A DNA stretch of 39,566 nucleotides. Source: Chloroflexota bacterium. GTDB taxonomy: Bacteria > Chloroflexota > Dehalococcoidia > UBA2247 > RBG-13-53-26. Position 1 is the first letter of the stretch. Every line of letters starts with the position of its first letter. The stretch lies in the NCBI GenBank assembly GCA_016876035.1, contig VGOE01000018.1, positions 1 to 39,566 on the forward strand, written 5' to 3'. Below the pieces are notes generated by a model. The model did not search any database and had not been told where the DNA came from. It worked only from the letters and a program-made list of their open reading frames with translations. The translations under genes were made by a program, and so were the position numbers. Shown piece by piece: positions 1,959-30,602 of the stretch.

Positions 1959-2996
1959 ATGATTGAAGGACTAAGGGAAACCATCCTGAAGTTCACCGCC
2001 GAGGGCAAGGATATGCTTTCGGTGATTGTCGGGCAGGAAGACACCAAAGAGCGCATTCTTGCCTCGCTGCTTGCTGGCCATCACATACTGATTGAGGGCC
2101 CTCCGGGTGTGGGCAAGACCACTATGGCCAAGCACATTGCTGCGGCGATGCCTCCCATAACTGTGGTTAAGGACTGCCCCTATCACTGCCATCCCGAAAG
2201 ACCTGTCTGCCCCCGGTGCAAGGTAAGAGCCACCGCCGGTGAAAAGCTGGAGGGGGTCACAATTAGCGGCGAGCAGAGATTCGTCCGCTTGCAAGGCTCT
2301 CCTGACCTCACTGCCGAGGACCTTCTGGGAGATATCGATCCCAGCCAGGCCTTCAAATACGGCCCCCAGGACTATCGCGCCTTTGTGCCGGGGAAGCTTC
2401 TCAAGGGAAACAGGGGGATCGTTTTCTTCGATGAGCTGAACAGGGTGACAGAGAAGCTACAGAATGCTCTCCTCCAGGTCCTCGAAGAAGGCATCGCCAC
2501 CATAGGCCCTTACGATGTAGACTACCCAGCCGACTTCGTGATGATCGCCACCATGAATCCCAGGGAGCGGGCTGGGGTAGAAGAGCTTTCCGACGTTCTC
2601 CTGGATAGATTTGATGTGGTCAAGATGAGCTACCCCGAGTCGTTGGAAAGGGAGAAAGAGATAGTCACCAGGTACGGTCTCAGCATGGATGGTGTGGCAG
2701 TACCGCAAAAGGTCCTCGATGCCATAGTTACCCTGGTACGGGCGACGCGCGAAGAGCCCTGGATAAAGGAGATGGACCAGTCAGCCAGCGTCAGAGCCAC
2801 TCTTTCTCTCTATGAGAAGGTGCAGGCCCTGGCCAGGCTGGGCGGTCGCTCTGAGGCGAGCTTGGACGACATCAGAAAGGCGGCTTCCTCTTCTTTAGGC
2901 AGCCGGATCAAGCCCTCTCCAGAATCCAGATTTTACGACGAGCCCTTCGATTTGATCGATGAATTGGTAAAGAATGTTCTAGAGGTACAACAGTGA
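1959..2996 (+). CDS. MoxR/ChlI-like AAA+ ATPase with four-Cys insertion
   Basis: AAA+ ATPase of 345 aa, closest in layout to magnesium-chelatase subunit I and MoxR proteins. Walker A is GPPGVGKTT (residues 47-55), Walker B IVFFDEL (154-160), sensor 1 IATMNP, and the Arg finger region LLDRFD. Between Walker A and Walker B is a four-Cys insertion (Cys73, 77, 84, 87; CPYHC...CPRC) that could bind zinc or an Fe-S cluster. The same motif with identical spacing occurs in the ChlD-like partner at 4475. MoxR/vWA pairs such as CoxD-CoxE and NorQ-NorD are known to activate metalloenzymes. Here the neighbours suggest work on the CODH/ACS-like enzymes. The gene overlaps cooC by 4 nt (GTGA), so the two are translationally coupled. 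No ChlH-type large chelatase subunit is present. Confidence 0.85.
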   Translation: MIEGLRETILKFTAEGKDMLSVIVGQEDTKERILASLLAGHHILIEGPPGVGKTTMAKHIAAAMPPITVVKDCPYHCHPERPVCPRCKVRATAGEKLEGVTISGEQRFVRLQGSPDLTAEDLLGDIDPSQAFKYGPQDYRAFVPGKLLKGNRGIVFFDELNRVTEKLQNALLQVLEEGIATIGPYDVDYPADFVMIATMNPRERAGVEELSDVLLDRFDVVKMSYPESLEREKEIVTRYGLSMDGVAVPQKVLDAIVTLVRATREEPWIKEMDQSASVRATLSLYEKVQALARLGGRSEASLDDIRKAASSSLGSRIKPSPESRFYDEPFDLIDELVKNVLEVQQ

Positions 2997-3754
2997 GCCA
3001 GGGCATTGCTATCGCCGTGTCGGGGAAAGGCGGAGTGGGTAAGACCTTCACATCATCCATGCTGGTCAAGCGACTCTCCGAACACGGTACTGTGCTGGCC
3101 ATAGATGCCGATCCCGATTCCAATCTCCCTGAAGCCCTGGGGGTGACAGCGACCAAAACCGTGGGAGCAGCGCGGGAAGCCATTATCAATGCGCCGGCTC
3201 GCAGCAAGGTGGCCAGCGCCAAGCAGGAATATCTGGAATTATCCATGCACGAAGCCATTGAGGAGTTCCCCCAATTTGACATCGTTGTCATGGGCCGTTC
3301 TGAGGGAGAAGGTTGTTACTGCGCCGTAAATCACGTCATCCGCCAGGTAATAGACAGCCGGGCAAGAGGATATGATTTCACCGTGGTGGACTGTCATGCC
3401 GGGCTGGAGCACCTCAGCCGCCGCACCACCAGGGACGTTGACATTATGCTCATAGTCACTGACATGACGAAGAATGGCATACTGACGGCCAGGAGGATCA
3501 AGGAGCTATCCCAGGAGCTATCTGTCCAGTTCGGGGCCATCCTGGCGGTGATGAACAGGGTGACGGACGAGGGCCGGCCTGACGCGGAGCGAATGGCCAA
3601 GGAAAACGGGCTGGATATTGCCGCCTATATTCCCTATGAACCCCTGGTGGCGCAGTTCGACCTCCAGGGAAAACCGGTGACAGGCATCCCCAGAGAGTCC
3701 CCCGCTTCTCTGGCCATAGACGGCCTTTGCCAGAAGATTCTTAGCTATGCCTGA
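2993..3754 (+). CDS. cooC: CooC-like nickel-insertion ATPase (copy 1)
   Basis: MinD/SIMIBI-class P-loop ATPase of 253 aa. In known CODH systems CooC binds Ni and uses ATP to help deliver it to the C-cluster. The deviant Walker A SGKGGVGKT is at residues 10-18. The switch region AIDADPDSN follows. The CooC-specific metal-binding CxC pair is Cys108 and Cys110 (EGEGCYC). These features separate it from MinD or ParA. Start GTG at 2993 overlaps the stop of the upstream AAA+ gene. A second, divergent copy lies at 30603. Its presence implies that a Ni-containing cluster is still assembled, even though the CODH alpha subunits in this locus lack some C-cluster ligands. Confidence 0.88.
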   Translation: MSQGIAIAVSGKGGVGKTFTSSMLVKRLSEHGTVLAIDADPDSNLPEALGVTATKTVGAAREAIINAPARSKVASAKQEYLELSMHEAIEEFPQFDIVVMGRSEGEGCYCAVNHVIRQVIDSRARGYDFTVVDCHAGLEHLSRRTTRDVDIMLIVTDMTKNGILTARRIKELSQELSVQFGAILAVMNRVTDEGRPDAERMAKENGLDIAAYIPYEPLVAQFDLQGKPVTGIPRESPASLAIDGLCQKILSYA

Positions 3755-4474: not shown

Positions 4475-6712
4475 ATGAACGTGGTGTTGGGGCAGATGGT
4501 AAACAGGTTGCTTAGAGAAGAGATTCTGGGCACTTTCAACAGGCTGGGACCGGACAGGTTCAGCCGTCTGGTCTTCGATGGCCTCCAGATAGAGGCAGAG
4601 GAGAGTCAGGCTTTGCTCAGCAGCCTGTGCAGCGGTCATCACCTGTTACTCCTCGGCCCGCCCGGCAGTGGCAAGACCAGTGTGGCCAATAACCTCTCCG
4701 CTATCCTCGGTGACATCGAGGTGGTGGAGGGCTGCCCCCTGCATTGTTCACCCAAAGACGCTTCTTGCCCCTGGTGCCTGGACAGAAAAGCGAGGGGTGA
4801 GACTCTTCGCAGCGCCACCCTGCCTGCAGCCGAGCGGCTGGTGAGGGTACAGGGGAGTGGGGGGCTGACGGTGGAAGACCTGATCGGAGACCTTGATCCT
4901 GAGGCGGCGCTCCAGGAGGGCATCTACTCTCCCAGGGCCTTTCTGCCTGGCAAGCTGCTGAAGGCCAACAGAAGCATATTGCTGCTCGATTTCATTGATA
5001 GGGTCCCCGAAAGAGTCCTCAACGCGGTGATCTATGCCCTCCAGGGCAGCTCCATCTCCATTGGCGTGCTGGAGCAGAAGGTACCCCTGGACACGCTGGT
5101 GGTGGCCACTGGCGGGGAGGCAGCCTTGCGGTCGTTACCCCTGGATTTGATGGACAACTTCGATGTCGTCCGCTTTGGCTACGTCAGCGACTTGGATAAA
5201 CAGAAGGAAATCGTTGCCGGCCACCTCAGACACAGCACAGACAGCCTGGCTGAGCCAGTGATGGAGAAGGCCATCAGGATTGTTGATGAGACAAGGGGGC
5301 ACGATGAGGTGGAACGGGGAGTGGGGACGCGGGGAATGATCAAATACGCCGAGATTCTGGCCCAGCTCCCTCAACTGCAATACCAGTCCGAGGATGAAAT
5401 GCTGTCCGAGGGCGCAGTGGTTTCGCTGCCCCACCGCCTCAAACTGGCTCCTGAGGTTGATCTGCCCGGAAAGAGGGAGCAGATCATCGACCAGGTGGTC
5501 AGCAAGATAACAGGTAAGGAGAAGGCCAAGAAAGACCTGGCCACCTTGACCAAACAGGACGTTCTGGCTCTGGTAGAGGAGATCGTCAAGGAGGAGAAGT
5601 TCAGGAAGCCGCTGAAGTATGGCGCCTTCGATCTCCTGTTGAGGAGGATCAAGCGCTTCCCTGAATCCAAGCTGGCCCAGCTTTACCGGGAGATTGCCAG
5701 CCGTTTGCCAGAGCTTTATCCTGAGCGCTACAAGGCTGACAACCTCGATGCTGAGCTGCTGGCAGAGATCGAGGAGTACAGGAAAGAGAAGGAGAGGATA
5801 GCCAATATTCTTGAGCGAGAGGCGCTGGCCAAGACCCTCAAGTTCCTGGAAGAAGAGGATATCTTGCAGCGCACCAGCAGCGGGTGGACGCTGAGCCAGC
5901 GCGGCATTAACGTCCTCCTGGAGAGGCTGACGCCCAGGTTGGACGAAGGTGCCTACCTCTATGGCTACGGGAGGCACAGCGCCGGCAAGAAGCTGACGCT
6001 GGGGGAGGGCAAGGTGGTGGGTGCCCGGCGGTTCCGTTTTGGCGATAAGTATCGCGATATCTCTTTTCGGGACACCATAAAAGAGGCCATCCGTAATCGG
6101 AGACAGCAAATTACCAGAGAAGACATCATCGTTAGTACCAAAGACATCCGTACCCGGATGGACATAGTCCTGGTCGTAGACCTCTCAGGCACCATGCTTC
6201 AACTGGACAAGTTCTGGTTTGCTAAACAGAGTGCCATTGCCCTGTCGCTGGCTGCCGCCGCCTATAAAGATAGAGTAGCCATAGTCTCATTCTCCAATCT
6301 GGCTGAGGTCGTTGTTGACCTGACCACGAATCCGCATAAGGTGACTCGCCGGGTGCTCGACCTCGATCTACATGAGAACGCCTTCACCAACATTGGCTAC
6401 GGCCTGCTGAAGGCCTGTGAGTTGCTGGAGCACCATCCCAAGGGAAGGGCAAAACAGCACATCATCCTTATCTCTGATGGTGATGCCACCGCCCCTCACC
6501 CCACCCCACAGAAGTACGCCCTCAGGCAAGCTGCCCTGGTAGCCCGCCGTGGCATTACCATATCTTGCATCTGTATCAACCAGCGGTCGGCTGACCCAGA
6601 GCTGATGCGAAGGATTGCCAAGACAGGAAAGGGAAGGATTTATCTTATCGGAGCTGAGGAGTTGCCTGCTGCTTTGCTTGAAGAGGCGGCTGCTGCCCGT
6701 ATTTCGTACTGA
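4475..6712 (+). CDS. ChlD-like protein: degenerate AAA domain plus vWA domain
   Basis: 745-aa protein with the architecture of magnesium/cobalt chelatase subunit D. The N-terminal AAA domain has Walker A GPPGSGKTS (61-69) and the four-Cys motif Cys87, 91, 98, 101 (CPLHC...CPWC), with the same spacing as in the AAA+ protein at 1959. The Walker B Glu is lost (ILLLDF where DE is expected), so this domain may bind but not hydrolyse ATP, as in ChlD/BchD. A charged helical linker follows (about 330-550). The C-terminal vWA domain has a MIDAS DLSGT motif (Asp569, Ser571, Thr573) and SDGD. It probably forms a hetero-oligomer with the 1959 ATPase, acting as a chelatase or metalloenzyme-activating machine. 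ATG 4475 has only a weak GAAG site. GTG 4484 is an in-frame alternative. Confidence 0.85.
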   Translation: MNVVLGQMVNRLLREEILGTFNRLGPDRFSRLVFDGLQIEAEESQALLSSLCSGHHLLLLGPPGSGKTSVANNLSAILGDIEVVEGCPLHCSPKDASCPWCLDRKARGETLRSATLPAAERLVRVQGSGGLTVEDLIGDLDPEAALQEGIYSPRAFLPGKLLKANRSILLLDFIDRVPERVLNAVIYALQGSSISIGVLEQKVPLDTLVVATGGEAALRSLPLDLMDNFDVVRFGYVSDLDKQKEIVAGHLRHSTDSLAEPVMEKAIRIVDETRGHDEVERGVGTRGMIKYAEILAQLPQLQYQSEDEMLSEGAVVSLPHRLKLAPEVDLPGKREQIIDQVVSKITGKEKAKKDLATLTKQDVLALVEEIVKEEKFRKPLKYGAFDLLLRRIKRFPESKLAQLYREIASRLPELYPERYKADNLDAELLAEIEEYRKEKERIANILEREALAKTLKFLEEEDILQRTSSGWTLSQRGINVLLERLTPRLDEGAYLYGYGRHSAGKKLTLGEGKVVGARRFRFGDKYRDISFRDTIKEAIRNRRQQITREDIIVSTKDIRTRMDIVLVVDLSGTMLQLDKFWFAKQSAIALSLAAAAYKDRVAIVSFSNLAEVVVDLTTNPHKVTRRVLDLDLHENAFTNIGYGLLKACELLEHHPKGRAKQHIILISDGDATAPHPTPQKYALRQAALVARRGITISCICINQRSADPELMRRIAKTGKGRIYLIGAEELPAALLEEAAAARISY

Positions 6713-6729
6713 GAAAGTGAGGCCCTGAG

Positions 6730-7956
6730 CTGACTTCCCCAGGTTTTGTCTGCACCGGATGTAGCTGCTTATGCGATGATATTCAGATTGAGATCGAGGA
6801 CGGGCGGCTCGGCAAGATCGAGAATGCCTGTGCCAAGGGAGCAGCCTATCTTCGCTCCGGCGTTAATCCGCAGCGTCGGGCCAGGAGCCTGGTCAAAGGG
6901 CAGAGCGTGTCTGCGGAGGAGGCGGTAGAAGAAGCAGCGCGGCTTCTTTCGAGGGCCAAGAACTGCCTTATCTTCGGGTTTGATAGCTCTACACTGGAGA
7001 CCCAGGCTATTGCTATCGAACTGGCACGAAAACTGGGTGCCGTGATTGATGATGCCTCATCCTTCTCCTGGGGCACTCTACTCGAGAGCCTGCTTCGGGG
7101 CGTATTGCCGACCTGCTCTCTTTCCGAAGTCAAGGACAACGCTGATCTACTCATATACTGGGGCTCTAATCCCCCCCATACTCACCCCAGACACCTTTCG
7201 AAGTTCACCTACTATGCCTATACTGACTACAACCCGGCCGGCTGGTTCCCGAAAGTAAAACTGAGTTGTTTTGAGGTGAGGGACACGGAGCTAAGTGTCA
7301 TGTGCCAGCCCGTCTTCAAGATCAAGCCCGGGGGCGATAGGCATTTCATCAGGGCAGTTCTTGGGGAAGCACCAAGCGGGGCAAAGGATTCGCAGTCCTT
7401 CTTGAAAATGGTGATAGAGTCCCACTTCTGTGTCATATTCTGCGGTGCTGGCCTGAGCTATTCACTCGACGGCGAATTCGGCCCTTTCAGCGACATGGTG
7501 CGACGGTTCAGCCAGGCGATACGAGTGGCAGTCATTCCTATGGTGGCACAGGCAAACCTGCGGGGATTCAGCCAGTCACTGTACGCTCAAACCCAACACG
7601 TGAACCAGGTGAGCTTTGGGGCGGGCATTTCTCATGGGAACGAGTTCTCCTTTGTGGAGCAGGTGAGGAAGGGCCTCGCTGATTGTGTGCTGGTTGTGGG
7701 TTCAGATCCGTTCTCCACCTTGCCGCAATCGCTGATGGGAAATCTTCGGGGCACGAGCATCATTTGCCTTGACCGCTTCTCCACTCCTACGACAACTGCT
7801 GCTGACGTCGTCATAGCGACGGCGCTTCCAGGTCTGGAGTGCGGTGGCTCGATGGCACGAATGGATGGAGACCGTGTGATCCTGGTGGGGCCGAAGAAGG
7901 GAGATTATCCTACTGAAGAGGAAATCCTGAACCAGTTGCTACAGAGGATAGAATGA
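6730..7956 (+). CDS. Formylmethanofuran dehydrogenase subunit B-like (FwdB/FmdB), divergent active site, probable CTG start
   Basis: Molybdopterin-oxidoreductase-type protein of 408 aa when read from the CTG at 6730. In-frame sequence before the first conventional start (GTG 6907) encodes the conserved FwdB N-terminus: VCTGCSCLCDDI, then ENACAKG. This is the [4Fe-4S] ligand set, so the GTG start would cut an essential domain. An in-frame TGA at 6718 limits the start to 6721-6748, where CTG is the only plausible start codon; GTGAGG (6717-6722) is 7 nt upstream. The middle (DLLIYWGSNPPHTHPRH) and C-terminus (ECGGSMARMDGDRV) match FwdB. The expected W/Mo-ligand Cys-His (SVCHGP in the family) reads SSFSWGT, with Ser113 (7066-7068) and Trp114. 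The family reduces CO2 to a formyl group; here the activity may be altered or absent. Confidence 0.85.
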   Translation: MTSPGFVCTGCSCLCDDIQIEIEDGRLGKIENACAKGAAYLRSGVNPQRRARSLVKGQSVSAEEAVEEAARLLSRAKNCLIFGFDSSTLETQAIAIELARKLGAVIDDASSFSWGTLLESLLRGVLPTCSLSEVKDNADLLIYWGSNPPHTHPRHLSKFTYYAYTDYNPAGWFPKVKLSCFEVRDTELSVMCQPVFKIKPGGDRHFIRAVLGEAPSGAKDSQSFLKMVIESHFCVIFCGAGLSYSLDGEFGPFSDMVRRFSQAIRVAVIPMVAQANLRGFSQSLYAQTQHVNQVSFGAGISHGNEFSFVEQVRKGLADCVLVVGSDPFSTLPQSLMGNLRGTSIICLDRFSTPTTTAADVVIATALPGLECGGSMARMDGDRVILVGPKKGDYPTEEEILNQLLQRIE

Positions 7957-8360
7957 TCATGCCCGAGCCTGAAAAAGGTGTCCCTTTAGTCATCGTCACC
8001 TACCAGGATATCTATCAGTGGATCGCCAGGCAGAGGGATGGCTGGGGCGATTCGTATCAGGCACAGTCAGCCACGATCCGGTTGTCGCCCGCCGATTTGA
8101 AGAACCTCGGTCTGAAGGATGGCGATCTGGTTGAGCTGGACAATGAAGCAGGCGCTGTCGTCGTAAAGACTAAGTCCGACCCTGCTTGTGAAGAAGGTAC
8201 GGCGATCATGCCGGCCAGTTTGTACTCTAATCGGCTGGCAAGCTGTGATCCATCGCGTTCACGCTTGCCTAACCTCAAACGAATAGAGGTCATAGCCAGG
8301 CCGACCGGAAAAGGCGTCACGCCGCTCTCAGACCTCTTGGTGAGGAAAACAGTTGCCTAG
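7953..8360 (+). CDS. Formylmethanofuran dehydrogenase subunit D-like (molybdopterin dinucleotide-binding)
   Basis: Protein of 135 aa matching the small beta-barrel domain that closes over the molybdopterin guanine dinucleotide (FwdD/FmdD; C-terminal domain of molybdopterin oxidoreductases). Visible motifs are RLSPADLKNLGLKDGDLVEL and EEGTAIMPASLYSNRL. The latter matches the family sequence in which a cofactor-contacting 'P.S..AN' segment occurs. The start overlaps the FwdB-like stop by 4 nt (ATGA), and a second in-frame ATG lies two codons later. Subunits A, C, F and G of the archaeal enzyme are not in the window, so B and D would form a reduced core with the Fe-S protein that follows. Confidence 0.85.
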   Translation: MIMPEPEKGVPLVIVTYQDIYQWIARQRDGWGDSYQAQSATIRLSPADLKNLGLKDGDLVELDNEAGAVVVKTKSDPACEEGTAIMPASLYSNRLASCDPSRSRLPNLKRIEVIARPTGKGVTPLSDLLVRKTVA

Positions 8361-8850
8361 GAAGAACCTTCAACCGCTCCAGATATATAGGTTGTTGCCG
8401 CGGACGAACTGTAAGCTCTGCGGTTGCCCTACTTGTTATGCCTTCGCCTTCGATCTCATAGGCAGAAATAAGCAACCCAGCGATTGTCCTGAACTCCTGA
8501 AAGACGAGTTCAAGGATTCTTACCGGATACTGAAGGAGCTTCTTGGGGAGGGAGAGCGTATCGAGGGCACCGACCATGTGATAGACAGGTCGAGATGCAC
8601 TGGCTGCGGCGATTGCGTGATAGTTTGCAACAGGGCGCTTACTACGGTTACCTCCGGTGGGCGGCTTACTCAACGCGCCTCGGTGCCTCCAGCGCTCCAG
8701 GTGATCGACGGTAACCTTCAGGTGATAGACTGGTCAAGCTGCAAGCGTTCTGTGCCGGGGCTTGATATTTGCAACTTATGCGCTGAGAAATGTCCCTTCA
8801 GCACACTCGACCTGGTAAAACAAGAGGAAGAAGATAACGAAGAGGACTAA
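8353..8850 (+). CDS. Fe-S protein: CFeSP-type cluster domain plus two ferredoxin-like clusters
   Basis: 165-aa protein with three probable [4Fe-4S] sites. Residues 20-45 (TNCKLCGCPTC ... Cys45) match the PF04060-type domain found at the N-terminus of the corrinoid iron-sulfur protein large subunit. Cys82, 85, 88, 92 (CTGCGDCVIVC) form a classical ferredoxin motif. Cys130, 140, 143, 147 (ending CNLCAEKCP) form a second. The C-terminus is very acidic. Start TTG at 8353 overlaps the stop of the upstream gene, so the three genes from 6730 are coupled. It likely carries electrons for the FwdB/D-like core. Its stop codon overlaps that of the convergent cdhA-like gene. Confidence 0.8.
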   Translation: MPRKNLQPLQIYRLLPRTNCKLCGCPTCYAFAFDLIGRNKQPSDCPELLKDEFKDSYRILKELLGEGERIEGTDHVIDRSRCTGCGDCVIVCNRALTTVTSGGRLTQRASVPPALQVIDGNLQVIDWSSCKRSVPGLDICNLCAEKCPFSTLDLVKQEEEDNEED

Positions 8851-11333
8851 CTGGTCTGTTTCTTGTCCCTGATATGTTTCGGCAACAACCTGCGCAGCCT
8901 ACAGTGATATCGCCCCAGTTCCATGCCATAGCTAGTATTGAACTCTGACAGGGTGAGGAGCTTACCATCCCGATTCCTGGCCCTCTTCACCTTTATTCCT
9001 TCTGTTTCCCAGCCGTGTTCCTCTTGCAGTAATTTGACCATCCGGATCCTGTGTCTTGTGGGTATGTCCAGGTGCGACCTCACCAGAAGATGCCAGTCAT
9101 CGGGTAGTTGCCCATAAAAGAGTCGATATAACTCAACCAGCAGGTCCATGCGGGCAGCCCGCCCCTCCCTCATCTCCGAGGTGCTGAAGAAGGTGCGTGG
9201 CATCATGGTCAGCGCTTCCTCTTTGGTTTCTACGGGGACAATAAGATGTTCCGGAATGGGTTCGGTTTCTCTCTTGGTGCCATCATCGCCGTGGTAAACC
9301 CACCACTTACTGCGGTCATATCTGTTGCCTGGCAAATAGCGGCCCCAGGTCCATCCCGAGGCTGGCCCCATTACCGTTCTGACGCCGAGGCGGGCATAGG
9401 CTGCTGCGGCAGCATACATCCTGTCTGGTAAGGCTCCCCAGATGAGCAGTGCAAAGGTGGTGTAGAGAGAGCCCTCTCCTACCTCCGGGATTCCGCCATA
9501 TAGAGGAATACCGCCGGCAGCACGCGAATACATGTACATGTTGTTTGCCAGAGAGGTGGCGGTACAGCCCCCGCAGTTGATGATGGACCTTGGCTCGATC
9601 GAAGAGGTGTATTGCTCGAAGATATACTTCCCCTTCTTTTCGTTGAAATTGCGAGCTATCTCCCCCGCAGCGCATCCCGCTACGAAGACGATGCAGTTGC
9701 GCCTGGTCAGTTCATTAGCCAGCCAGCCGATGTCATCGCGGTAGGCATCGCCGCAACCCAGGATTACCACGATGCCGGGAGCATTGCCCCAGACCATGGA
9801 GAAAGCCGATTGCAGTATCTCAGTCAGCGGGAGAGGCCCTCTTCCTGCCCGCATGATAAGCTTATCGCTGCTGGCCTTCTTTCTCTCCGCTGCCACTATT
9901 ACGTCGCGCAACGCCACTTTGCCCGGGCAGGCCTCCTCGCACTTGCCGCAGAAATAGCAGCCCTTCTCCACCTCAAAGAAGCCATCCCACTGGGCTTGGC
10001 TAAGCTGCCTGATTGCATTGGGCAAAGGTAGGCTATTGGGACAGGCATCGAAACAAAGATCACAATCGGCCTGGCACTTCTTGGCTTCCTGGATGGCTGA
10101 CTCGTCGGAAAGAATGTAGCTGCCTGCTCTCTTCACCCTCTGGGCCACCTTCACGGCGATCTCACCAGCCTTTTCCACATCCCTCACCCAGGCTGCTTTC
10201 TCCCCCCCGACCAGGGCGTCCGCTATCTTGTCCACAGGGTCGTCTGTTCTGTCAGCCAGATTGCCGACTGATTGTTGACTTACCCAGATAAGCTTGGTCT
10301 GCACCCGCTCTGCCTCCGACAGAAGGTCCAGAGGCATGCAGCCAGCGCTGGCCACAACTACGTCAAACACACCGTTCCTGATAGCCTTTCCCGCCTTTAC
10401 CATGGGGGCGATAATACGGCACCTGTTATAGAATCGGGCTGTATCATCCCCTGCCGGGCCTATTCCGCATATTTCGATCTTCTCTGTCAGGTCGTTCTGT
10501 TTGAGATATTCCACGGCGCACCAAGCTGGCAGGAAGTCGTCACCAGCGAAGGCTATTACTGGTTTACCCGGCTCTATGCTGGCCCATCCACCAGCCAAGT
10601 TAGCCGGTGGAAAGTTGTCCAATTCGTCAATTTTGTGGTTGGCGGCGGAGACGAAGCCGAAACAGGATACCTTCACCATCTCAGCCACTCCCATGGCCAG
10701 CAGCAGGACGGATCCGGCGTGCATTGCCATACCTTCGAAATCCGCTGCCGTGCCCGTACCGGAGTAGCTTGCCTGGAAGAGCCTGGCTAGCTGCGCTTCT
10801 CCATAGGAAAGCACTCTGTCCAGGTCAGCGAGGTTCTTCACGTACATGCCGCTCAAGGTGCCAATAGGCGGGCAGTGGTCAGACATGGTCAGGAGTTCGC
10901 CCATGCTGACAGGTTTGTCTTTGGCCCATACCTTGAGGGCGTAGTTCAGGAGATCGCGGCTGGCTATCATCTGGCTAACGCAGCCACGGCATGCCTTCCT
11001 CAAGCTCAGCCTGCCCTGAAAGGACTCTATTTCCAGTCCGCACTTCCCTTTGCCCTTTCTCAGATGGCAGGGGCCTTGGCCACAATCAGTGCATGCCTCT
11101 TGAAGCTGCGTGTACAGCGGCTGGTATCTCTCAAGCAGAGTGTGATCCCAGTCCGCTATATCTGCGTCATCGGGGAAAATGTTCAACCGTGCCCCAAATT
11201 GAGCATAGCGGCTCTCGACGAAATCCTTTTCCAGAATTTCCGTAACTATATCCTCAATGCCGCGAGGGTCACGTACCACCTGGCTGATATCGACTTCATG
11301 GGGCCCGATATGTGCGATCCTCTTATCTGCCAC
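8847..11333 (-). CDS. cdhA: CODH alpha subunit-like (CdhA), copy 1, atypical C-cluster
   Basis: 828-aa homologue of archaeal CODH/ACS alpha subunit. N-terminal Cys81, 84, 89, 98 and Cys115, 118 (TDCGQGPC, CRGC) correspond to the B/D-cluster region. GKPVIAFAGDD...CGIGPAGDD...ASAGC is the first half of the CODH core. Two ferredoxin motifs follow (Cys420, 424, 427, 431 and 459, 462, 465, 469). The second half of the core has Cys527 (LGCGD), Cys554 (AGCAAG) and Cys590 (NCGGC). Family members have GHN and ICC where this protein has GDD (Asp265) and IGP (Gly292). His and that Cys hold the unique iron of the C-cluster, so it has lost both; Cys332, 527, 554 and 590 remain. GTG start at 11333 has AAGGAG upstream. 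Last gene of the minus-strand operon. Ordinary CO oxidation is doubtful. Confidence 0.85.
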   Translation of the reverse strand: MADKRIAHIGPHEVDISQVVRDPRGIEDIVTEILEKDFVESRYAQFGARLNIFPDDADIADWDHTLLERYQPLYTQLQEACTDCGQGPCHLRKGKGKCGLEIESFQGRLSLRKACRGCVSQMIASRDLLNYALKVWAKDKPVSMGELLTMSDHCPPIGTLSGMYVKNLADLDRVLSYGEAQLARLFQASYSGTGTAADFEGMAMHAGSVLLLAMGVAEMVKVSCFGFVSAANHKIDELDNFPPANLAGGWASIEPGKPVIAFAGDDFLPAWCAVEYLKQNDLTEKIEICGIGPAGDDTARFYNRCRIIAPMVKAGKAIRNGVFDVVVASAGCMPLDLLSEAERVQTKLIWVSQQSVGNLADRTDDPVDKIADALVGGEKAAWVRDVEKAGEIAVKVAQRVKRAGSYILSDESAIQEAKKCQADCDLCFDACPNSLPLPNAIRQLSQAQWDGFFEVEKGCYFCGKCEEACPGKVALRDVIVAAERKKASSDKLIMRAGRGPLPLTEILQSAFSMVWGNAPGIVVILGCGDAYRDDIGWLANELTRRNCIVFVAGCAAGEIARNFNEKKGKYIFEQYTSSIEPRSIINCGGCTATSLANNMYMYSRAAGGIPLYGGIPEVGEGSLYTTFALLIWGALPDRMYAAAAAYARLGVRTVMGPASGWTWGRYLPGNRYDRSKWWVYHGDDGTKRETEPIPEHLIVPVETKEEALTMMPRTFFSTSEMREGRAARMDLLVELYRLFYGQLPDDWHLLVRSHLDIPTRHRIRMVKLLQEEHGWETEGIKVKRARNRDGKLLTLSEFNTSYGMELGRYHCRLRRLLPKHIRDKKQTS

Positions 11334-11375
11334 TATAACACTCCTTGGCAGCGGTCAAAGGAAAATTAAAGCCAG

Positions 11376-11597
11376 TTATCCCAGGAACTCGGTTTCCTTC
11401 ATGCATTTCTCGCATACTTTCAATTTCTGCGCCGCTGACTTCATGGGGCTGGTTATCCTCCCCATCATCCTCTGACCGGGCCTAGTGGATTCGATGCGAA
11501 CCTCCCGGACACACTCGTCACACAGTGCGATGCTGCACTGATGGCACGTCCACTGTGCTTCCTTCTTCTGGCATACAGCACACATTTTTTCTGCCAT
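11376..11597 (-). CDS. Eight-Cys mini-protein between ACS and CODH subunits, copy 1
   Basis: 73-aa protein with four CxxC pairs (Cys6/9, 18/21, 26/29, 62/65). The first six Cys resemble a B-box or double zinc-ribbon (CxxC-x8-CxxC-x4-CxxC). It has a basic middle segment and a C-terminal VCEKCMKE. No function is recognised. It sits 18 nt after cdhC-like copy 1 and 42 nt before cdhA-like copy 1. A clear homologue holds the same position in the second module (15771), so it is a conserved part of the unit and a possible cluster- or metal-handling factor, or a structural link between subunits. Confidence 0.8.
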   Translation of the reverse strand: MAEKMCAVCQKKEAQWTCHQCSIALCDECVREVRIESTRPGQRMMGRITSPMKSAAQKLKVCEKCMKETEFLG

Positions 11598-11615
11598 GGT
11601 TCCCCCGATCTTAGT

Positions 11616-12983
11616 TCAATCATCAGGCCAGTCTTCCCCCGGGAGGGGCAGCTTCAGTGGCTGGGGTTGGCCGTCTTTCCAGAACATCTTCACTATCGGG
11701 TGGCCTCTTTTCACCAGCAGCTCCTTCAACTCCAGGGGGTCTATGGTTTCCTCATCAGTAACAATCTTGTCGTAGACCTCTTCCGGTATGACGTCTGCTA
11801 TTTCCCGCTTGAGTTCGGCTGGCATCCAGACTATGCGATTCCAGCCGCCATCGCCTCGGAGGAAATTCTTGCTGCCCATACCGGCGATGGAAAGCCCTTT
11901 GAACCCGTGGTTCTGCGACCCGCCAGAAATCTGACCTGCCAAAGTGGAGAACTTGATACCGAGCGGCGTCATCTTGGTATAGCGCCGCATAGCTAGACCA
12001 ATGCCATCTACTTCTGGTATGTAGAAGGACGCCGCCTCGAAGCAGCCGCAGTTGGTGGTGGGATACTTTATGCTACTGTAAATATGCACACGCTTCACCA
12101 GATGGTTGCACCTCTCCCATATGGCCTCGTCCACTCCACTGTAGTGTCCCACCTCAGGGTCTAGACATTCGCCCTTGGGAATGGTGAAAACATAGCCCTC
12201 TGGGTCCAGCTCCGCTGTAACCTTGGCGGAATCGTAGCCTATGATGCCGCAGTAAGGCAGAGAGCTGGGTGTGAGAACACAGGCGTGGTTTGGAGCCAGG
12301 GACTTGCATATCGTGCAGCCATAGAAGGTGTCTACATCCTCATCATCGTACAGTTCCTTGGCACTGATGATTTTGAATTTCTCTTTCGCCCATTCCACCA
12401 GCGGGTCTATCATCTCAACGCCACCGACCTCAGGAGCCCCCACAGCCCAGAAGAACGCCACCGCGTCTACCTGGGGAATAAGCGTCTTGGCCGTGGCGTA
12501 GCAGAATTGTGATATCTTGGCAAAGGTAAGCCTGTCAGCAACCTCTTTGTTGATTCGTATCCACAGGCCGTCCGGCGAACCGAAGAGCATGAACCCCTCT
12601 ATCCCTTGCAGCGCTGTCCCTATCTGCCTCGATACATATCCCTGGTGCCCCGGAGTCAATTCCTTGCCATAGACCCTTATGGTGAACCCGCCGGGCAGCG
12701 AAGTGCCAGGCTTGACTTCTGGTATGTCTGGCCCGATCAGTTTCACCTCACCGTCTTTCACCTTCTCCGGGTCTTCCTCAATGTAGAAGATGGAAAACAT
12801 CTTGTAGTCCCACTTCGGCCCACCCAGCTCGAGATGCATGTCAGCCTTCTTGACCTCGCTCAACCATCTCAGGCCCAGTCCGATATCGTCCAGCCCATCC
12901 CACAGATGGTCGAGATCGGTCGGCAACTGGAATATCCTTCCCTGTGGGAGTTTTGTTACTGCTTCTTCCTCTGGAATTGCCAT
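11616..12983 (-). CDS. cdhC: Acetyl-CoA synthase beta subunit-like (CdhC), copy 1
   Basis: 455-aa homologue of the ACS catalytic subunit (CdhC/AcsB C-terminal two-thirds). All A-cluster Cys are visible: Cys223, 226, 235 and 245 (CTIC...NHAC...PYC) with the family spacing 3-9-10 for the [4Fe-4S] cube, and the CGC pair Cys312/314 (TTNCGCFE) for the distal Ni. Conserved GGSQNHGFKG and RIVWMP also match. The residue after Cys226-Lys-Ser is Leu229 (KSLAP), where well-known ACS has QSFAP, which may change the pocket beside the proximal Ni. I choose the ATG at 12983, since the GTG at 12989 overlaps its own GGGGG ribosome site. In known systems ACS joins CO, a methyl group and CoA. No corrinoid protein gene is in the window. 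Confidence 0.88.
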   Translation of the reverse strand: MAIPEEEAVTKLPQGRIFQLPTDLDHLWDGLDDIGLGLRWLSEVKKADMHLELGGPKWDYKMFSIFYIEEDPEKVKDGEVKLIGPDIPEVKPGTSLPGGFTIRVYGKELTPGHQGYVSRQIGTALQGIEGFMLFGSPDGLWIRINKEVADRLTFAKISQFCYATAKTLIPQVDAVAFFWAVGAPEVGGVEMIDPLVEWAKEKFKIISAKELYDDEDVDTFYGCTICKSLAPNHACVLTPSSLPYCGIIGYDSAKVTAELDPEGYVFTIPKGECLDPEVGHYSGVDEAIWERCNHLVKRVHIYSSIKYPTTNCGCFEAASFYIPEVDGIGLAMRRYTKMTPLGIKFSTLAGQISGGSQNHGFKGLSIAGMGSKNFLRGDGGWNRIVWMPAELKREIADVIPEEVYDKIVTDEETIDPLELKELLVKRGHPIVKMFWKDGQPQPLKLPLPGEDWPDD

Positions 12984-13105
12984 TTGCACCCCCTACGTGG
13001 ATCGTTTGCTACCATCTGCCACCAGCTTGCTCTGCTTCGGCCCCATTCACCCCATTTCCCTGAGCCGGTGACCTCATTTCTATGTTCACCTTCAGCCGGA
13101 GAGCT

Positions 13106-15592
13106 CTACTTTTCCGCCGCCCCCCTCAGGCGCAACGGCAACTGACTGCGCAGCCTGGTGTTATAGATGCCTTGCTCCATGCCATAGCTGGCGGCAAATT
13201 CTGACAGGGTCAGAAGCCTGCCATCACGGTGCTTGGCTTTCTTGATCTTCATTCCTTCTGTTTCCCAGCCTTGTTGGGCTGCCAGCAGGTTGACCATGTG
13301 CCTCCTGTGTCTCGGCGGCAGCTCAAAATCTGATCTGACCAGGAGGTGCCAGTCTTCAGGAAGTTGGTTATAGAAGCGCAGGTAATAGTCGATCAGAACC
13401 TCCAGGTGGGTAGCCCGGCTCTCTCTGTAGTCTTTTACAGTCAAGACAGACCTGGCCAGCATGGTTAGTGCTTCCTCTTTAGTTTCCACTGGCACAATTA
13501 GGTGCTCCTTCACTGGTTCAACTTCTCGTCTCTTACCCGTTTCCCCGTGATGTACCCACCACTTGCTCTGGTCATACCTGTTACCAACCAGGTAGCGATT
13601 CCATCCCAGGGATGAAGCCGGGCCCACTATCACCGTTGAGCCCAGACGAGCCCACGCGGCCGCCACAGCGTACATCCTGTCCGGTAGAGCCCCCCACATG
13701 ATAATTGACTGTGCCCCACCAAGACTGATCGAGTCTCCTAGCGGGGCTATGTTGCCATAGAGGTGGATGCCACCAGAAGGGCGGAGCATCAGGTACATCG
13801 GGACTGACTGACAAATGGCAGAGCAACTGCCGCAGTTAACTAGATTCCTTGCTGCACAGGTAGCTGGGTATTGCTGAAAAAGATACTTCCCTTTCGTTTT
13901 GCTGAAGGAGCGGGCCACTTCGGCTCCGGAGCATCCTGCAACGAAAACCATGCAGCCGCCGTTGAGCAATTCATCGGCTATCCAGGCGATCTCTTCTTGG
14001 CGGGCATCGCCGCAGCCGAAGATAGTAACCATGGCGGGGATACTGCCCCAGCCTACAGCAAAAGCCGATTGCAGCAACTCGGTAATCGATATGGGCCCTC
14101 TGCCGGCCCTCATTACGAATTTGTCAGCGCCAGCCTGCTTTCTCTCGGCAGCCACTATGATGTCGCGCAACGGAACCTTGCTGGGGCAGGCGTCTTCACA
14201 GGCACCGCAGAAACTGCAACCCTTCTCTACCTCAAAGAAACCATCCCAGTTACCTTCAGCGAGCTGCCTTACTGCCTTAGATACGGGCAGGCCGACAGGA
14301 CAAACAATGGAACAGATATCACAGTCCTTCTTATGGTTCTTGGCCTGCTTGGTGGCCTCGTCCTCAGCGATGGTATAGTTGCCCCGCCTCTTCACCTTTT
14401 GGGCGAGCTTTACTGCGACTTCCCCTGCCTTCTCTGGGTCCCTGATCCAGGCTGCCTTTTCACCAGCAGCTAAGGCGTCGACTATCTTGTCAACTGGCTC
14501 GTCGGTGCTGTCGGTCAATTCGTCGGTCGCATGATGACCCACCCATATAGCCTTGCTTTCCACCCTGGCTGCCTCAGATAGAAGGTCCAAGGGCAAGCAT
14601 CCCGGACTGATGACCACCACATCGAATACGCCATTCCGAATTGCTTTTGCTGCCCGTACCATTGGGGCGACAATACGACACTTATCGTAGAACCTGGCTA
14701 CATCATCGCCTGCCGCACCTATGCCACATATTTCGATCTGCTCGGTCAGACCATTTTTCTTGGCGTAATCTATGGCACACCATGCCGACAAGAAATCATC
14801 GCCGACAAAGGCTATAACTGGCTTGCCCTTTTCGATGGATGCCCATCCTCCAGCCAGAGCCGCTGGAGGGAACTGTTCCAGTTGGTCGAGTGCCTGGTTT
14901 GCAGCGCTGGGGAAGCCGTAGCAGGAAATCTTCAGCATCTCAGCCACTCCCATGGCAAGCAGCAGGACGGAACCGGCATGCAGTACCATGCTTTCGAAAT
15001 CCACTGCTCTTCCCGTACCTGAGTAACTGGCCTGAAACAGCTTGGCCAGCTGTGCTTCCCCATACGAGAGCGCTTTGTTCACGTCTTTAAGATTCTTTAT
15101 GTATAACCCTGACAGGACGCTTATGGCAGGGGCGCAGTCGGAGATGCTCAGAATGTCCCCCATGCTAACAGGCGTATCTTCCGGCCACCGCTTGAGGGCA
15201 TAGTTCAGCAACTCACGGCTGGCCACCATCTGCGTCATGCAGCCGCGGCATGCCTTTCGTAGGCTCAACCTGCCCTGGAAAGACTCCATATCCAGTCCAC
15301 ACTTTCCCTGGCCTTCCTTCAGATTGCAGGGGCCTGAGCCGCAGTCAGCGCACACCCCCTGGGGGTGCATATACAATGGCGGGCATTTATCCAGCAGAGA
15401 ATAGTCTAACTCCGCTATGTCTGCTGCATCGGGCAGGAGAGTTATCTTTCCCCCGAAATTACTCTGGTGGCCCTCAACAAAGTCGTTCTCCATTATTTCG
15501 ACGACCATGTCTTCCATGCCCCGGGGATCACGCACCACTTCACGGATATCAACTTCCAGGGACCCGACGCGAGCGATTCTCTTATCTTTCAC
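13106..15592 (-). CDS. cdhA: CODH alpha subunit-like (CdhA), copy 2, atypical C-cluster
   Basis: 828-aa paralogue of the 8847 protein, the same length and colinear without indels through at least residue 590. It shares the non-canonical sites: Asp265 for the C-cluster His (GDD) and Gly292 for the Cys of ICC (CGIGAAGDD). Cys332, 527, 554 and 590 are kept. Residue 420 is His where copy 1 has Cys, so the first ferredoxin motif has three Cys plus a His (NHKKDCDIC). The second ferredoxin motif (Cys459, 462, 465, 469) is complete. GTG start at 15592 has a GGAGGG site. It lies 179 nt after mini-protein 2 and 116 nt upstream of cdhC-like copy 1. Many substitutions separate the two copies, so the duplication is not recent. 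Confidence 0.85.
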   Translation of the reverse strand: MKDKRIARVGSLEVDIREVVRDPRGMEDMVVEIMENDFVEGHQSNFGGKITLLPDAADIAELDYSLLDKCPPLYMHPQGVCADCGSGPCNLKEGQGKCGLDMESFQGRLSLRKACRGCMTQMVASRELLNYALKRWPEDTPVSMGDILSISDCAPAISVLSGLYIKNLKDVNKALSYGEAQLAKLFQASYSGTGRAVDFESMVLHAGSVLLLAMGVAEMLKISCYGFPSAANQALDQLEQFPPAALAGGWASIEKGKPVIAFVGDDFLSAWCAIDYAKKNGLTEQIEICGIGAAGDDVARFYDKCRIVAPMVRAAKAIRNGVFDVVVISPGCLPLDLLSEAARVESKAIWVGHHATDELTDSTDEPVDKIVDALAAGEKAAWIRDPEKAGEVAVKLAQKVKRRGNYTIAEDEATKQAKNHKKDCDICSIVCPVGLPVSKAVRQLAEGNWDGFFEVEKGCSFCGACEDACPSKVPLRDIIVAAERKQAGADKFVMRAGRGPISITELLQSAFAVGWGSIPAMVTIFGCGDARQEEIAWIADELLNGGCMVFVAGCSGAEVARSFSKTKGKYLFQQYPATCAARNLVNCGSCSAICQSVPMYLMLRPSGGIHLYGNIAPLGDSISLGGAQSIIMWGALPDRMYAVAAAWARLGSTVIVGPASSLGWNRYLVGNRYDQSKWWVHHGETGKRREVEPVKEHLIVPVETKEEALTMLARSVLTVKDYRESRATHLEVLIDYYLRFYNQLPEDWHLLVRSDFELPPRHRRHMVNLLAAQQGWETEGMKIKKAKHRDGRLLTLSEFAASYGMEQGIYNTRLRSQLPLRLRGAAEK

Positions 15593-16001: not shown

Positions 16002-17366
16002 CTACTCCTCTGACCAATCTGCCCCTGGCAATGGTACCTTGAGTGGTTGAGGCTCACCATTCTTCCAGAACTTCTCCACTATCGGGTGTTTTTTCTTCTT
16101 GAGAAACTCCTTCAGTTCGATAGGATCAATGGTATCCTCTTCAGTGGCAATCTTGTCGTAGATCTCCTCTGGAATGTATTCTGCTACCTCACGTTTCATG
16201 TCTGCGGGCATCCAGACTATTCTGTTCCAGCCACCATCACCCTTGAGGAAAGTCTTGCTCTGAATGGATCGTACGGATATCCCTTTGTTCCCGTGGTTCT
16301 GCGAGCCGCCGGAAATCATGCCAGCTAGCCGTGAGAACTTGATACCCAGGGGAGTCACACCTATGTACCGGCGTATGGCCAGTCCAAGGCCGTCCACTTC
16401 CGGAATATAGAACGCTGCCCCCTCAAAGCAGCCGCAGTTAGTGGTAGGGTATTTTATGGCACTGAATATGTTGACGTGCTTTACCTGGTGGTTGGACCTC
16501 TCGTAAACAGCCGCATCCACGCCAGTGTAGCTCCCCAGTTCGGCGTTCAAGCACTCGCCTTTGGGCATGGGGAAGATGTAGCCTTCCGGATCCATTTCTA
16601 CTGTCACCTGAGCCGATGTATAGGAAAGGATACCGCAATAGGGTATCTGGCTGGGCGTAATGGCGCACACGTGGTTGGGCGCTAGCGACTTACAAATGGT
16701 GCAGCCATAAAAGATGTCCACATCCTCGTCTTCCATGGTCAAAGCCATCTCCTGGGCTTTCAACCTTTGAATCCCCAGTTTGTAAAGCGGCTCTATAAGT
16801 CCTATGCCACCGACCTCGGGAGCCCCGATTATCCACCGAAACTCCATGGCTTCCACATGAGGGACCACAGTCCTTACGTAGGCATGTAAAATCTGGCATA
16901 ACTTCGGGAAGGTCAGCCTGCCTACCACCGACTTGCTTATTCTCATCCATGGAGCCTGGAAGGTGCCAAAGGCCATATACCCTTCTATACCATGCAGCGA
17001 CATGGCCATCTGACGTTCAATATACTCACGATGTCTCTGACCTATTCCCTTGCCATAGACCTTGATGTCCCAGGCCATAGGGACGGAAGTGCCTGGCTGG
17101 ACCTCATGTATGTCGGGGCCAATCAAGGTCACTATGCCGTTTCTGACCTTCTGCGGGTCTTCAATGATCTCAAGGATGGTATAGCTCTTATACTCCCACT
17201 TTGGCCCAGACAGCTCAATTTGCATGTCGGCCTTCTTCACTTCAGCCACCCATCGTATTCCCAAGCCGATGTCCTTCAGCCCATCCCACAGATGGTCAGG
17301 GTCTGTGGGCAACTGGAACTCTCTGCCTGGTGGCATCTTTACTTCAACATCTTGCCCCAAAGTCAC
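16002..17366 (-). CDS. cdhC: Acetyl-CoA synthase beta subunit-like (CdhC), copy 2
   Basis: 454-aa paralogue of copy 1 with a complete A-cluster set: Cys222, 225, 234 and 244 (CTIC...NHVC...PYC) and Cys311/313 (TTNCGCFE). It also carries KSLAP in place of the usual QSFAP. The N-terminal part (LIGPDIHEVQPGTS ... LHGIEGYMAFG) is the domain shared with the truncated homologue at 29739. GTG start at 17366 has AGGAGG about 8 nt upstream. The C-terminus ends in the same ...LPLPGADWSEE-type acidic tail as copy 1. It is the first gene of the duplicated module in transcription order. Confidence 0.88.
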   Translation of the reverse strand: MTLGQDVEVKMPPGREFQLPTDPDHLWDGLKDIGLGIRWVAEVKKADMQIELSGPKWEYKSYTILEIIEDPQKVRNGIVTLIGPDIHEVQPGTSVPMAWDIKVYGKGIGQRHREYIERQMAMSLHGIEGYMAFGTFQAPWMRISKSVVGRLTFPKLCQILHAYVRTVVPHVEAMEFRWIIGAPEVGGIGLIEPLYKLGIQRLKAQEMALTMEDEDVDIFYGCTICKSLAPNHVCAITPSQIPYCGILSYTSAQVTVEMDPEGYIFPMPKGECLNAELGSYTGVDAAVYERSNHQVKHVNIFSAIKYPTTNCGCFEGAAFYIPEVDGLGLAIRRYIGVTPLGIKFSRLAGMISGGSQNHGNKGISVRSIQSKTFLKGDGGWNRIVWMPADMKREVAEYIPEEIYDKIATEEDTIDPIELKEFLKKKKHPIVEKFWKNGEPQPLKVPLPGADWSEE

Positions 17367-17571: not shown

Positions 17572-18477
17572 TCACTGAGCCATTATGGTCTTGGGCACCA
17601 TTTTGATCAGTTCCTCTACAGTCCAAGCCCCTTCCTTCTTGTAGTCTCTGTAGAGGCCCTTGTACTCCACTGGAGCCGAGTACACGGCCACCCGCCCACC
17701 ACCACAGCCGATTACCTTGCCGTTTACAATGCTGGCTTCTTCTGTGCAAAGATATGCCACCACCGGGGCTACATACTCCGGTCCAGGCATATTGATCAGT
17801 TCGTCGTAGTAGTCCGGGCTAATCATGCCTGCCTCAAGTCCCGCCTTGAATCTGGCCTTCACTTCGTCGTCCAGCGTCATCCTGGTCGCTGCAATAGGGG
17901 CGATGGCGTTGACAGTTACATTGTACTTCCCAAGTTCTTGTGCAGTGGTGTAGGTCAAACTGACAATCCCCCCTTTGGCAGCGCTGTAGTTGGGCTGCCC
18001 TGGGCTGCCTCGCCAGGCATCAGAGGTGGTACTTACTATTCGGCCCCACTTCTGTTCCCTCATCAATCTAGAGGCGTGGCGGATCATGTTGAACGTCCCC
18101 TTGAGGTGGACGGTGAGCACCGCATCCCATTCTTCTTCTGTCATGTTGAAGACCATGCGGTCACGAAGGATGCCAGCGCAATTGACCAGGATGTCTATCC
18201 GGCCGAAATTATCCACGCAACTCTTTATCATGCGCTCGGCGGCAGCGAAGTCGGTTACCGATTCCGTGCCAGGGATAGCCACGCCCCCAGCCTTCTTGAT
18301 CTCGGCTACTACCTCCGCCGCGGGACCCTTATCAGCCCCCTCCCCCCCCTTGGTCCCGCCCAGGTCGCACACCACTACCTTCGCCCCCTGAGCGGCCAAC
18401 TCTAGAGCCACCGCTCTACCGATACCCCTCCCAGCACCAGTGACCACAGCATTCTTGCCTTCCAGTTTCTTGCTCAT
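17572..18477 (-). CDS. Short-chain dehydrogenase/reductase (hydroxyacyl-CoA dehydrogenase-like)
   Basis: 301-aa SDR. The nucleotide-binding TGAGRGIG is at residues 13-20 (VVTGAGRGIGRAVALELA). NCAG, the catalytic Ser in STTSDAW and the YxxxK motif NYSAAKG are intact, so it should be active with NAD(P). The extra loop after the Rossmann start (GTKGGEGADKGPA) and the long C-terminus (YKGLYRDYKKEGAWT) resemble multifunctional-enzyme type 2 3-hydroxyacyl-CoA dehydrogenases. It lies in the minus-strand operon between the CODH epsilon-like genes and the ACS/CODH modules. That is an unusual partner for CODH/ACS and suggests an acyl-CoA or ketone substrate. A strong AAGGAGGT site precedes the ATG. Confidence 0.85.
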   Translation of the reverse strand: MSKKLEGKNAVVTGAGRGIGRAVALELAAQGAKVVVCDLGGTKGGEGADKGPAAEVVAEIKKAGGVAIPGTESVTDFAAAERMIKSCVDNFGRIDILVNCAGILRDRMVFNMTEEEWDAVLTVHLKGTFNMIRHASRLMREQKWGRIVSTTSDAWRGSPGQPNYSAAKGGIVSLTYTTAQELGKYNVTVNAIAPIAATRMTLDDEVKARFKAGLEAGMISPDYYDELINMPGPEYVAPVVAYLCTEEASIVNGKVIGCGGGRVAVYSAPVEYKGLYRDYKKEGAWTVEELIKMVPKTIMAQ

Positions 18478-18523: not shown

Positions 18524-19093
18524 TTACTCCTCGTCTTCCTCTTCCGCCAGGAGCCTTTCCTGGATGAGATGAGCAGCCCTGGTGCTCATATAAGCGTCGA
18601 AGCTCATCTTACTCATATAGAAATGCTTCTGGAATTCCTTGTCAGATGGTGACCCAATGATGCATATCGTCGTGTGCTCCTCAGGGTTACAGAACCAGAC
18701 TGTCAGCCCCGAGTCTTTCATGGCAAAATACCGCCGACCTTCTTCCTCGGTGAGGAACTCTATCAGCAGGTACTCGTTCGCTGGCGGCAATACCAGTATA
18801 CAATCGACATCGCGCTTGACCGCCCGTATTGCTGCCAGTTGAATGAGTGCCTCAACCGCCTCATCCAGACTTTCGCGCACCAGTCCCACAATCTCGCAAG
18901 TACCACTGGCTGTTTTCCGTTTCGCCCGGAAATCAGGCTGCACAAAACCAATATAGGATGTTGGCTTCAGCTCATAGCCCACTTGTTGCATCAGCCGCTG
19001 CGCCTCATCCAGCAACTCTGAAGCACTGAAAACGTAGTGCCGGAATGCGCCCTGGCTAACTCTATTCTTGATTTTCTCGGCCTGGTTATCCAC
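18524..19093 (-). CDS. Unknown protein in the CODH-like operon
   Basis: 189-aa soluble protein that I do not recognise. Its layout is mixed alpha/beta: an N-terminal helix (SASELLDEAQRLMQQVGYEL), strands around SYIGFVQPDF and GTCEIVGLVRES, a helix with EAVEALIQLAAIRAVKR, then DCILVLPPANEYLLIEFL. The C-terminus is strongly acidic (LLAEEEDEE). There is no signal peptide or membrane segment. It starts with GTG 6 nt after the epsilon-like gene and is followed by the SDR gene at 46 nt. Co-transcription with the CODH epsilon-like subunit suggests an accessory role in the same complex. Confidence 0.7.
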   Translation of the reverse strand: MDNQAEKIKNRVSQGAFRHYVFSASELLDEAQRLMQQVGYELKPTSYIGFVQPDFRAKRKTASGTCEIVGLVRESLDEAVEALIQLAAIRAVKRDVDCILVLPPANEYLLIEFLTEEEGRRYFAMKDSGLTVWFCNPEEHTTICIIGSPSDKEFQKHFYMSKMSFDAYMSTRAAHLIQERLLAEEEDEE

Positions 19094-27311: not shown

Positions 27312-27314
27312 ACC

Positions 27315-28613: not shown

Positions 28614-28666
28614 GGGAGTCTATTGGGATGCATCATCGGGGTGAGAATTAAATGCAAGGAGACGGC

Positions 28667-29455: not shown

Positions 29456-29738
29456 ATTCAATTCCCGTCATTGAACAGGTCATGCCACAGCCGTAAGCCT
29501 ACAGGAATAGAGGCTGAATCTATTGTAGAGCTGCCTCTGTCATTACTGCGAAAGCAGAAATCCAGAAGATATATACGGTGGATTCCGTGTCAAGTGCCCA
29601 ATGGGATGCTGTAGGGTGATTGCCAAGACCAAGACACTACACTGGCTTTGGCCGCCCTTCACTTCTGGCGCGAAATCGGCGAGTGGCCGGATCGTCTGTT
29701 CAGAATAGAAGGCCGAACCTGCCAAGAGAAGGCTGATC

Positions 29739-30527: not shown

Positions 30528-30602
30528 ACATGATTGGCAGGCGCTGCCGTAGTGGTAGGGCTGCCACATGAAGCAGCTTGAATCTACAGGTTGTGAGTAG
30601 TG

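Follow-up and report, generated by a model that had tools for sequence, protein, structure and literature searches.

The C-cluster of CO dehydrogenase (CODH) is the textbook catalyst of CO2/CO interconversion, a chemistry for which the ordinary cluster requires its outlying iron. Three described systems are close to the proteins reported here: CdhA, the alpha subunit of archaeal-type CODH/ACS (8riu, 9c0q-t, 3cf4); CODH-V of Carboxydothermus hydrogenoformans, which we take to be CooS-type and without a tie to an ACS paralogue; and the hybrid cluster proteins (HCPs). The C-cluster ligand set is His261, Cys295, Cys333, Cys446, Cys476 and Cys526 (PMC10502027). In CODH-V position 295 is Glu, and the protein has neither a C-cluster nor CODH activity; the cluster ligands of HCPs include the retained His, Glu residues and a persulphurated Cys (PMC10502027).

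The window, a stretch of 39,566 nucleotides of contig VGOE01000018.1 from a member of the Dehalococcoidia (Chloroflexota), encodes two CdhA-like proteins, P0001 and P0002, here called alpha'. Like CdhA, alpha' has the same fold, domain plan and E/F ferredoxin insert, four cubane cysteines, B-cluster cysteines, and epsilon-like and CdhC-like neighbours. Unlike CdhA, with which it shares about 30% identity, it lacks the outlying-iron ligands, the D-cluster cysteines and the relay His. CODH-V too is built on the CODH scaffold and altered at the outlying-iron site, but its residues at the two ligand positions are His and Glu, against Asp or Asn and Gly in alpha'. HCPs belong to the same superfamily and share the cluster Cys positions with alpha', which differs in the Asp or Asn and Gly at those positions and in retaining the CdhA-type insert. 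The pattern of CODH-V and HCPs (His retained, Glu for a Cys ligand) was not found in the alpha' family.

Metal-site residues of the CdhA-like proteins

P0001 and P0002 were both full-length; they share 62% identity with one another and about 31% with the host's ordinary CdhA. Their scores against TIGR00314 (CdhA) were 456.3 and 451.1 bits, respectively, below the curated equivalog cut-off of 781.3 bits. An AlphaFold2 model of P0001, with the family alignment as input, had a mean pLDDT of 90.3 and matched 9c0r_A (CODH alpha of Methanosarcina thermophila) with TM-scores of 0.85/0.93, which supports the fold and does not address the cluster. A CdhA fold with the E/F ferredoxin insert was evident from this model together with the family cysteines.

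The initial annotation had proposed that both proteins lost the two ligands of the outlying iron and kept the four of the cubane. Translation and alignment to solved CdhA (8riu, 9c0q) placed both losses where it had put them. Residues 264–266 (GDD) aligned on GHN, and residues 289–293 (CGIGP in P0001, CGIGA in P0002) on (A/G)-G-(I/L)-C-C, so that both adjacent cysteines of the ICC motif are gone, with Gly292 and Pro/Ala293 in their place. The four cubane cysteines of solved CdhA corresponded to Cys332, Cys527, Cys554 and Cys590 in both proteins.

Residue counts over 33 family members, drawn from Dehalococcoidia, Desulfobacterota, ANME-1 and Alkanophagales and aligned with five ordinary CdhA, showed that the pattern is no product of chance. 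The His column held Asp (17) or Asn (16) in the family versus His in all five ordinary proteins; the Cys column of the outlying iron held Gly in 33/33 versus Cys in 5/5. All cubane columns were Cys in every family member. Further family copies showed the same ligand pattern, with the single exception of L214, which has Phe in the His column. A different His or Cys at the iron positions was also sought in the alignment, and no universal replacement ligand was found among the 33 members: Cys289 was present in 27 and His296 in 19. A hidden substitute His or Cys was rejected on these counts.

The claim that everything else was conserved did not hold. Columns 78 and 82, which we take to be the D-cluster cysteines from motif comparison with CODH structures, lacked Cys in 33/33 members, and columns 121/124/127, presumably the His relay, were for the most part replaced. 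The PHSSKYRR stretch, which on the same grounds we assume to be the His561/Lys563 region, reads PASGWTWGRY or PASSLGWNRY in the window proteins. The active-site Lys and His were lost in the Dehalococcoidia members; many archaeal and Desulfobacterota members retained the Lys in a PxGFKFKR stretch. The E/F cluster cysteines were retained throughout, except Cys459 (30/33), and those of the B-cluster in all 27 of the 33 members that have this domain. Gly292, Gly295, Phe267 and Gly528 were characteristic of the family and unlike ordinary CdhA, as was Asp297 (31/33).

Gene module and ACS-like partner

Neighbourhood clustering placed alpha' in a module with an epsilon-like subunit, an ACS/CdhC-like beta' (ACS'), a 189-aa protein, Fwd-like proteins, an iron-sulphur protein and maturation genes (Table 1). 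The alpha' proteins are not readable alone: the partner ACS, the epsilon-like subunit and the Fwd-like proteins belong to the unit. The neighbourhood was kept across Chloroflexota, Desulfobacterota and Alkanophagales, with an incomplete gene set at some loci, and most genomes of the ANME-1 type had alpha' and ACS' at separate loci. FwdB- and FwdD-like proteins were joined by an FwdA-like protein at some loci, and thiolase or SDR genes adjoined the module at others. The frame of the FwdB-like gene was open upstream of the first ATG/GTG/TTG (6907) and encoded the expected CxxC N-terminus. The homologue in the MAG DeMMO5 retained the Cys-His tungsten ligand. A homologue of the epsilon-like subunit at locus L079 matched TIGR00315 (CdhB) with 4.5e-12, below the cut-off. 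The module showed no corrinoid-protein paralogue, which leaves the methyl or alkyl donor of ACS' unexplained.

Two further features were noted in the surroundings. Within 26166-31400 of the window, a pair of 2-hydroxyacyl-CoA dehydratase genes with an activator gene came before genes for a stand-alone CdhC N-terminal domain protein (29739-30527) and a CooC-like ATPase. Directly next to alpha' at L079 (SURF_34) stood a tandem array of several genes from a single family, related to the Peripla_BP_6 protein of the window (23042-24178).

Table 1. Module features of the window, with ACS' loci of relatives in the last two lines
Feature	Positions	Strand	Basis
P0001, CdhA-like alpha' copy 1, 828 aa	8847..11333	-	translation, alignment, profile search, AlphaFold2
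P0001, lost Fe1 ligand sites	Asp265 10539-10541; Gly292 10458-10460	-	
P0001, cubane cysteines	Cys332 10338-10340; Cys527 9753-9755; Cys554 9672-9674; Cys590 9564-9566	-	
P0002, CdhA-like alpha' copy 2, 828 aa	13106..15592	-	translation, alignment, profile search
P0002, lost Fe1 ligand sites	Asp265 14798-14800; Gly292 14717-14719	-	
P0002, cubane cysteines	Cys332 14597-14599; Cys527 14012-14014; Cys554 13931-13933; Cys590 13823-13825	-	
P0003, ACS/CdhC-like beta', A-cluster motif GCTIC..C..C and NCGCFE intact	11616..12989	-	
P0004, second ACS/CdhC-like beta', A-cluster motif intact	16002..17366	-	
Short-chain dehydrogenase, 3-oxoacyl-ACP reductase-like; same-strand run, recurs near module	17572..18477	-	
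Conserved 189-aa protein, AF2093-like (PD-(D/E)XK-like) fold	18524..19093	-	
CdhB/epsilon-like subunit, 157 aa	19100..19573	-	
Iron-sulphur protein, CdhE-N-terminal-like FeS domain and Fer4	8353..8850	+	
FwdD-like molybdopterin-dinucleotide-binding protein	7953..8360	+	
FwdB-like protein, tungsten-ligand Cys-His (CHG) replaced by Ser-Trp (SWG)	6713..7956	+	
ChlD/VWA-type AAA protein, probable maturation factor	4475..6712	+	
CooC/MinD-like P-loop ATPase, probable Ni-insertion factor	2993..3754	+	
ChlI/MoxR-type AAA ATPase, probable maturation factor	1959..2996	+	
ACS' TGA loci: L074/L111, L100/L145, L157, L158, L159			
ACS' with double TGA	L074:5929-7326; L100:1252-2616		

ACS' was present in all 20 alpha' genomes searched, mostly alongside an ordinary ACS, and this co-occurrence suggests that alpha' and ACS' work together. 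Like CdhC, ACS' has all the A-cluster cysteines, which were invariant or replaced by in-frame TGA, and the window copies P0003 and P0004 passed the TIGR00316 (CdhC) cut-off of 355.95 bits with 361.0 and 356.7 bits. It differs from CdhC in forming its own sequence group, with its own N-terminus and, in most members, APNH, QNHG and GDGG signatures.

A further difference from CdhC lay in the CGC motif. The window copies carry Cys at this motif and no TGA, and in five Desulfobacterota-type MAGs both of its Ni-binding cysteines were TGA in an otherwise open frame (UGU). In each of the five Sec-form ACS' genes a SECIS-like hairpin (TGAGGG...CCCTCA or a close variant) began at the TGA, and TCAGGTTGA was a further stretch common to their loci. 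At one position the Sec forms had Gln CAG where the Cys forms carry mostly Glu GAG, and the hairpin stem is thereby completed. Synonymous-codon identity between divergent Sec forms was 0.70 at the hairpin versus 0.36 downstream and 0.49 upstream, from a small set of 27 codon pairs. Since four of the five genomes had a tRNA-Sec and three had SelB above its cut-off, in a combination that covers all five, each has at least one element of the Sec machinery. A reassigned code was rejected, because TGA terminates other module genes in these lineages, most clearly in L074. The coincidence of in-frame TGA on a conserved Cys, Sec machinery in the genome and TGA otherwise used as a stop points to a candidate A-cluster that apparently has two selenocysteines, with selenium at the nickel site. 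ACS/CdhC is not listed in a 2026 inventory of prokaryotic selenoproteins (PMC13188914), the one source covered by our check for prior reports.

Family spread and the host's ordinary enzymes

In a scan with one genome per species, alpha' occurred in Dehalococcoidia, several Desulfobacterota or 'Deltaproteobacteria', ANME-1, Ca. Alkanophaga and other Alkanophagales; MAGs with the label Methanosarcinales had it too. Of the 58 genomes in the archaeal class to which Alkanophaga belongs, about 22 encoded alpha', and their scores were clearly set apart from those of ordinary CdhA. Members from the two domains of life were 36–40% identical. The family looks rare: among 301 sampled genomes of the host phylum no close homologue was found beyond the host genome, and among 398 genomes of the phylum of DeMMO5 that MAG alone had a clear ACS' member, the other matches scoring 388–401 bits.

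All 20 sampled alpha' members fell into one clade (bootstrap 100/99; the CooS root is a long branch). Because the family is a single clade, P0001 and P0002 share one ancestral loss. The Fe1 ligands were most likely lost only once, in an ancestor of both window paralogues, and the loss has persisted. The earlier argument from the same loss in two paralogues stands as far as selection over decay is concerned, and fails if the two are taken as independent losses.

The host genome (2.53 Mb, draft) encodes an ordinary operon on contig 32, with cdhA (1099 bits; cut-off 781), cdhC, cdhE, cdhD, a methyltransferase gene and a CooC-like ATPase, so the window copies of alpha' are supernumerary. Contig 113 carries a CooS-family gene (L048:1571-3475; 727 bits to TIGR01702); in a single alignment its product had Glu in the Cys295 column (NIETGQE), like CODH-V.

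Separately, a CdhA group from other families of Dehalococcoidia (L009 in genome G130, L010 in G082) had lost all six C-cluster ligands, the cubane cysteines being replaced by N, G, D/E and G/D. It was the sole CdhA-type match in these two genomes.

Possible roles of the alpha' family

Our preferred reading, on which we place roughly even confidence, is that alpha' is no CO dehydrogenase: it would carry a bare cubane and serve ACS', the site of the chemistry, as a redox or electron-transfer partner. P0001 and P0002 would be alpha' subunits of a paralogous CODH/ACS-like complex, composed of alpha', the epsilon-like subunit, ACS-like beta' and the 189-aa protein, together with the Fwd-like redox proteins. 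Since the C-site cannot hold an outlying iron, its cluster would most likely be a plain cubane, [4Fe-4S] (or NiFe3S4), with no interconversion of CO and CO2. Together with the B, E and F clusters, this cubane would relay electrons or act as a redox partner, and alpha' would be a scaffold for ACS', whose Ni A-cluster would make or break the bonds. The ligand pattern, the single clade, the host's ordinary operon, the steady presence of ACS' and the conserved neighbourhood speak for this reading, and CODH-V, which lacks both C-cluster and CODH activity, is a precedent (PMC10502027). Against it, the module shows no corrinoid-protein paralogue, alpha' and ACS' are not neighbours in most ANME-1-type genomes, and the intact electron wire and the Lys of PxGFKFKR would also fit a catalytic C-site.

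The initial annotation had offered a modified cluster or an electron-transfer role, and both are still live. A C-site with new chemistry, on a remodelled cluster (a Ni-cubane or Fe-S-O type) and with a molecule other than CO, is a tentative possibility given that the wire to the site is conserved. The four invariant cysteines, the complete B/E/F wire and the family-conserved residues unlike ordinary CdhA fit such a site, and CODH-V and the HCPs offer a precedent for an Fe-S-O cluster; neither Cys289 nor His296 is universal as a replacement ligand, however, the relay His columns are lost and, in Dehalococcoidia, so is the active-site Lys. That alpha' is still a CO dehydrogenase, with its outlying iron on residues such as Asp265 or Cys289, is improbable. 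Asp in the His column of 17/33 members, the frequency of Cys289 and the CODH fold speak for it; the other 16 members have Asn in this column, Cys289 is missing from some, the relay His and D-cluster are gone, and CODH-V, in which position 295 is Glu, lacks CODH activity (PMC10502027). Decaying duplicates are scarcely credible. Catalytic residues are indeed lost, and the separate Dehalococcoidia CdhA group lacks every C-cluster ligand, but the alpha' frames are open, several genomes keep two copies, the module is conserved, the clade is single and ancient, and the cubane cysteines are invariant despite 36–40% identity between domains. Frameshifts and relaxed selection were not seen across most orthologues, and the few split copies occurred on draft contigs only. 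Decay was rejected on the open frames, the invariant cubane and the single clade.

As to the substrate, a role in anaerobic alkane metabolism, for example in the step from alkyl-CoM to acyl-CoA, would be compatible with the preferred reading and is unlikely. The module is present in Ca. Alkanophaga and other Alkanophagales, in which this step is unexplained (PMC10322722), and thiolase or SDR genes stand beside it at some loci. It is, however, confined to about 22 of the 58 genomes of that archaeal class, and its carriers also include methane oxidisers and bacteria from which alkyl-CoM reductases are not known. An alkane-only role was rejected because the distribution is both too patchy and too broad.

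The alpha' family, common to bacteria and methane- or oil-eating archaea and accompanied by its own version of ACS, is apparently undescribed: no description was found in the literature searched, with most subscription papers and preprints outside the search. At least one recent survey of CODHs left out all sequences in which C-cluster cysteines are mutated (PMC13240472), and surveys that demand these cysteines intact would hide the family. More speculatively, it may represent a second ancient CODH/ACS-like class in Archaea and Bacteria, with a new cubane-only redox cluster in its CODH half and an ACS half, its A-cluster Ni ligated by Cys or by two Sec, that would form or cleave acyl-CoA from a substrate other than CO2-derived CO. 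A conserved branch with cubane and wire kept and the outlying iron given up offers a natural experiment on what that iron contributes and on the abilities of the scaffold in its absence. If true, the partnership with a dedicated ACS and, in some lineages, the apparent selenium ligands to nickel at the A-cluster would be new biochemistry in a very old carbon-fixation enzyme.
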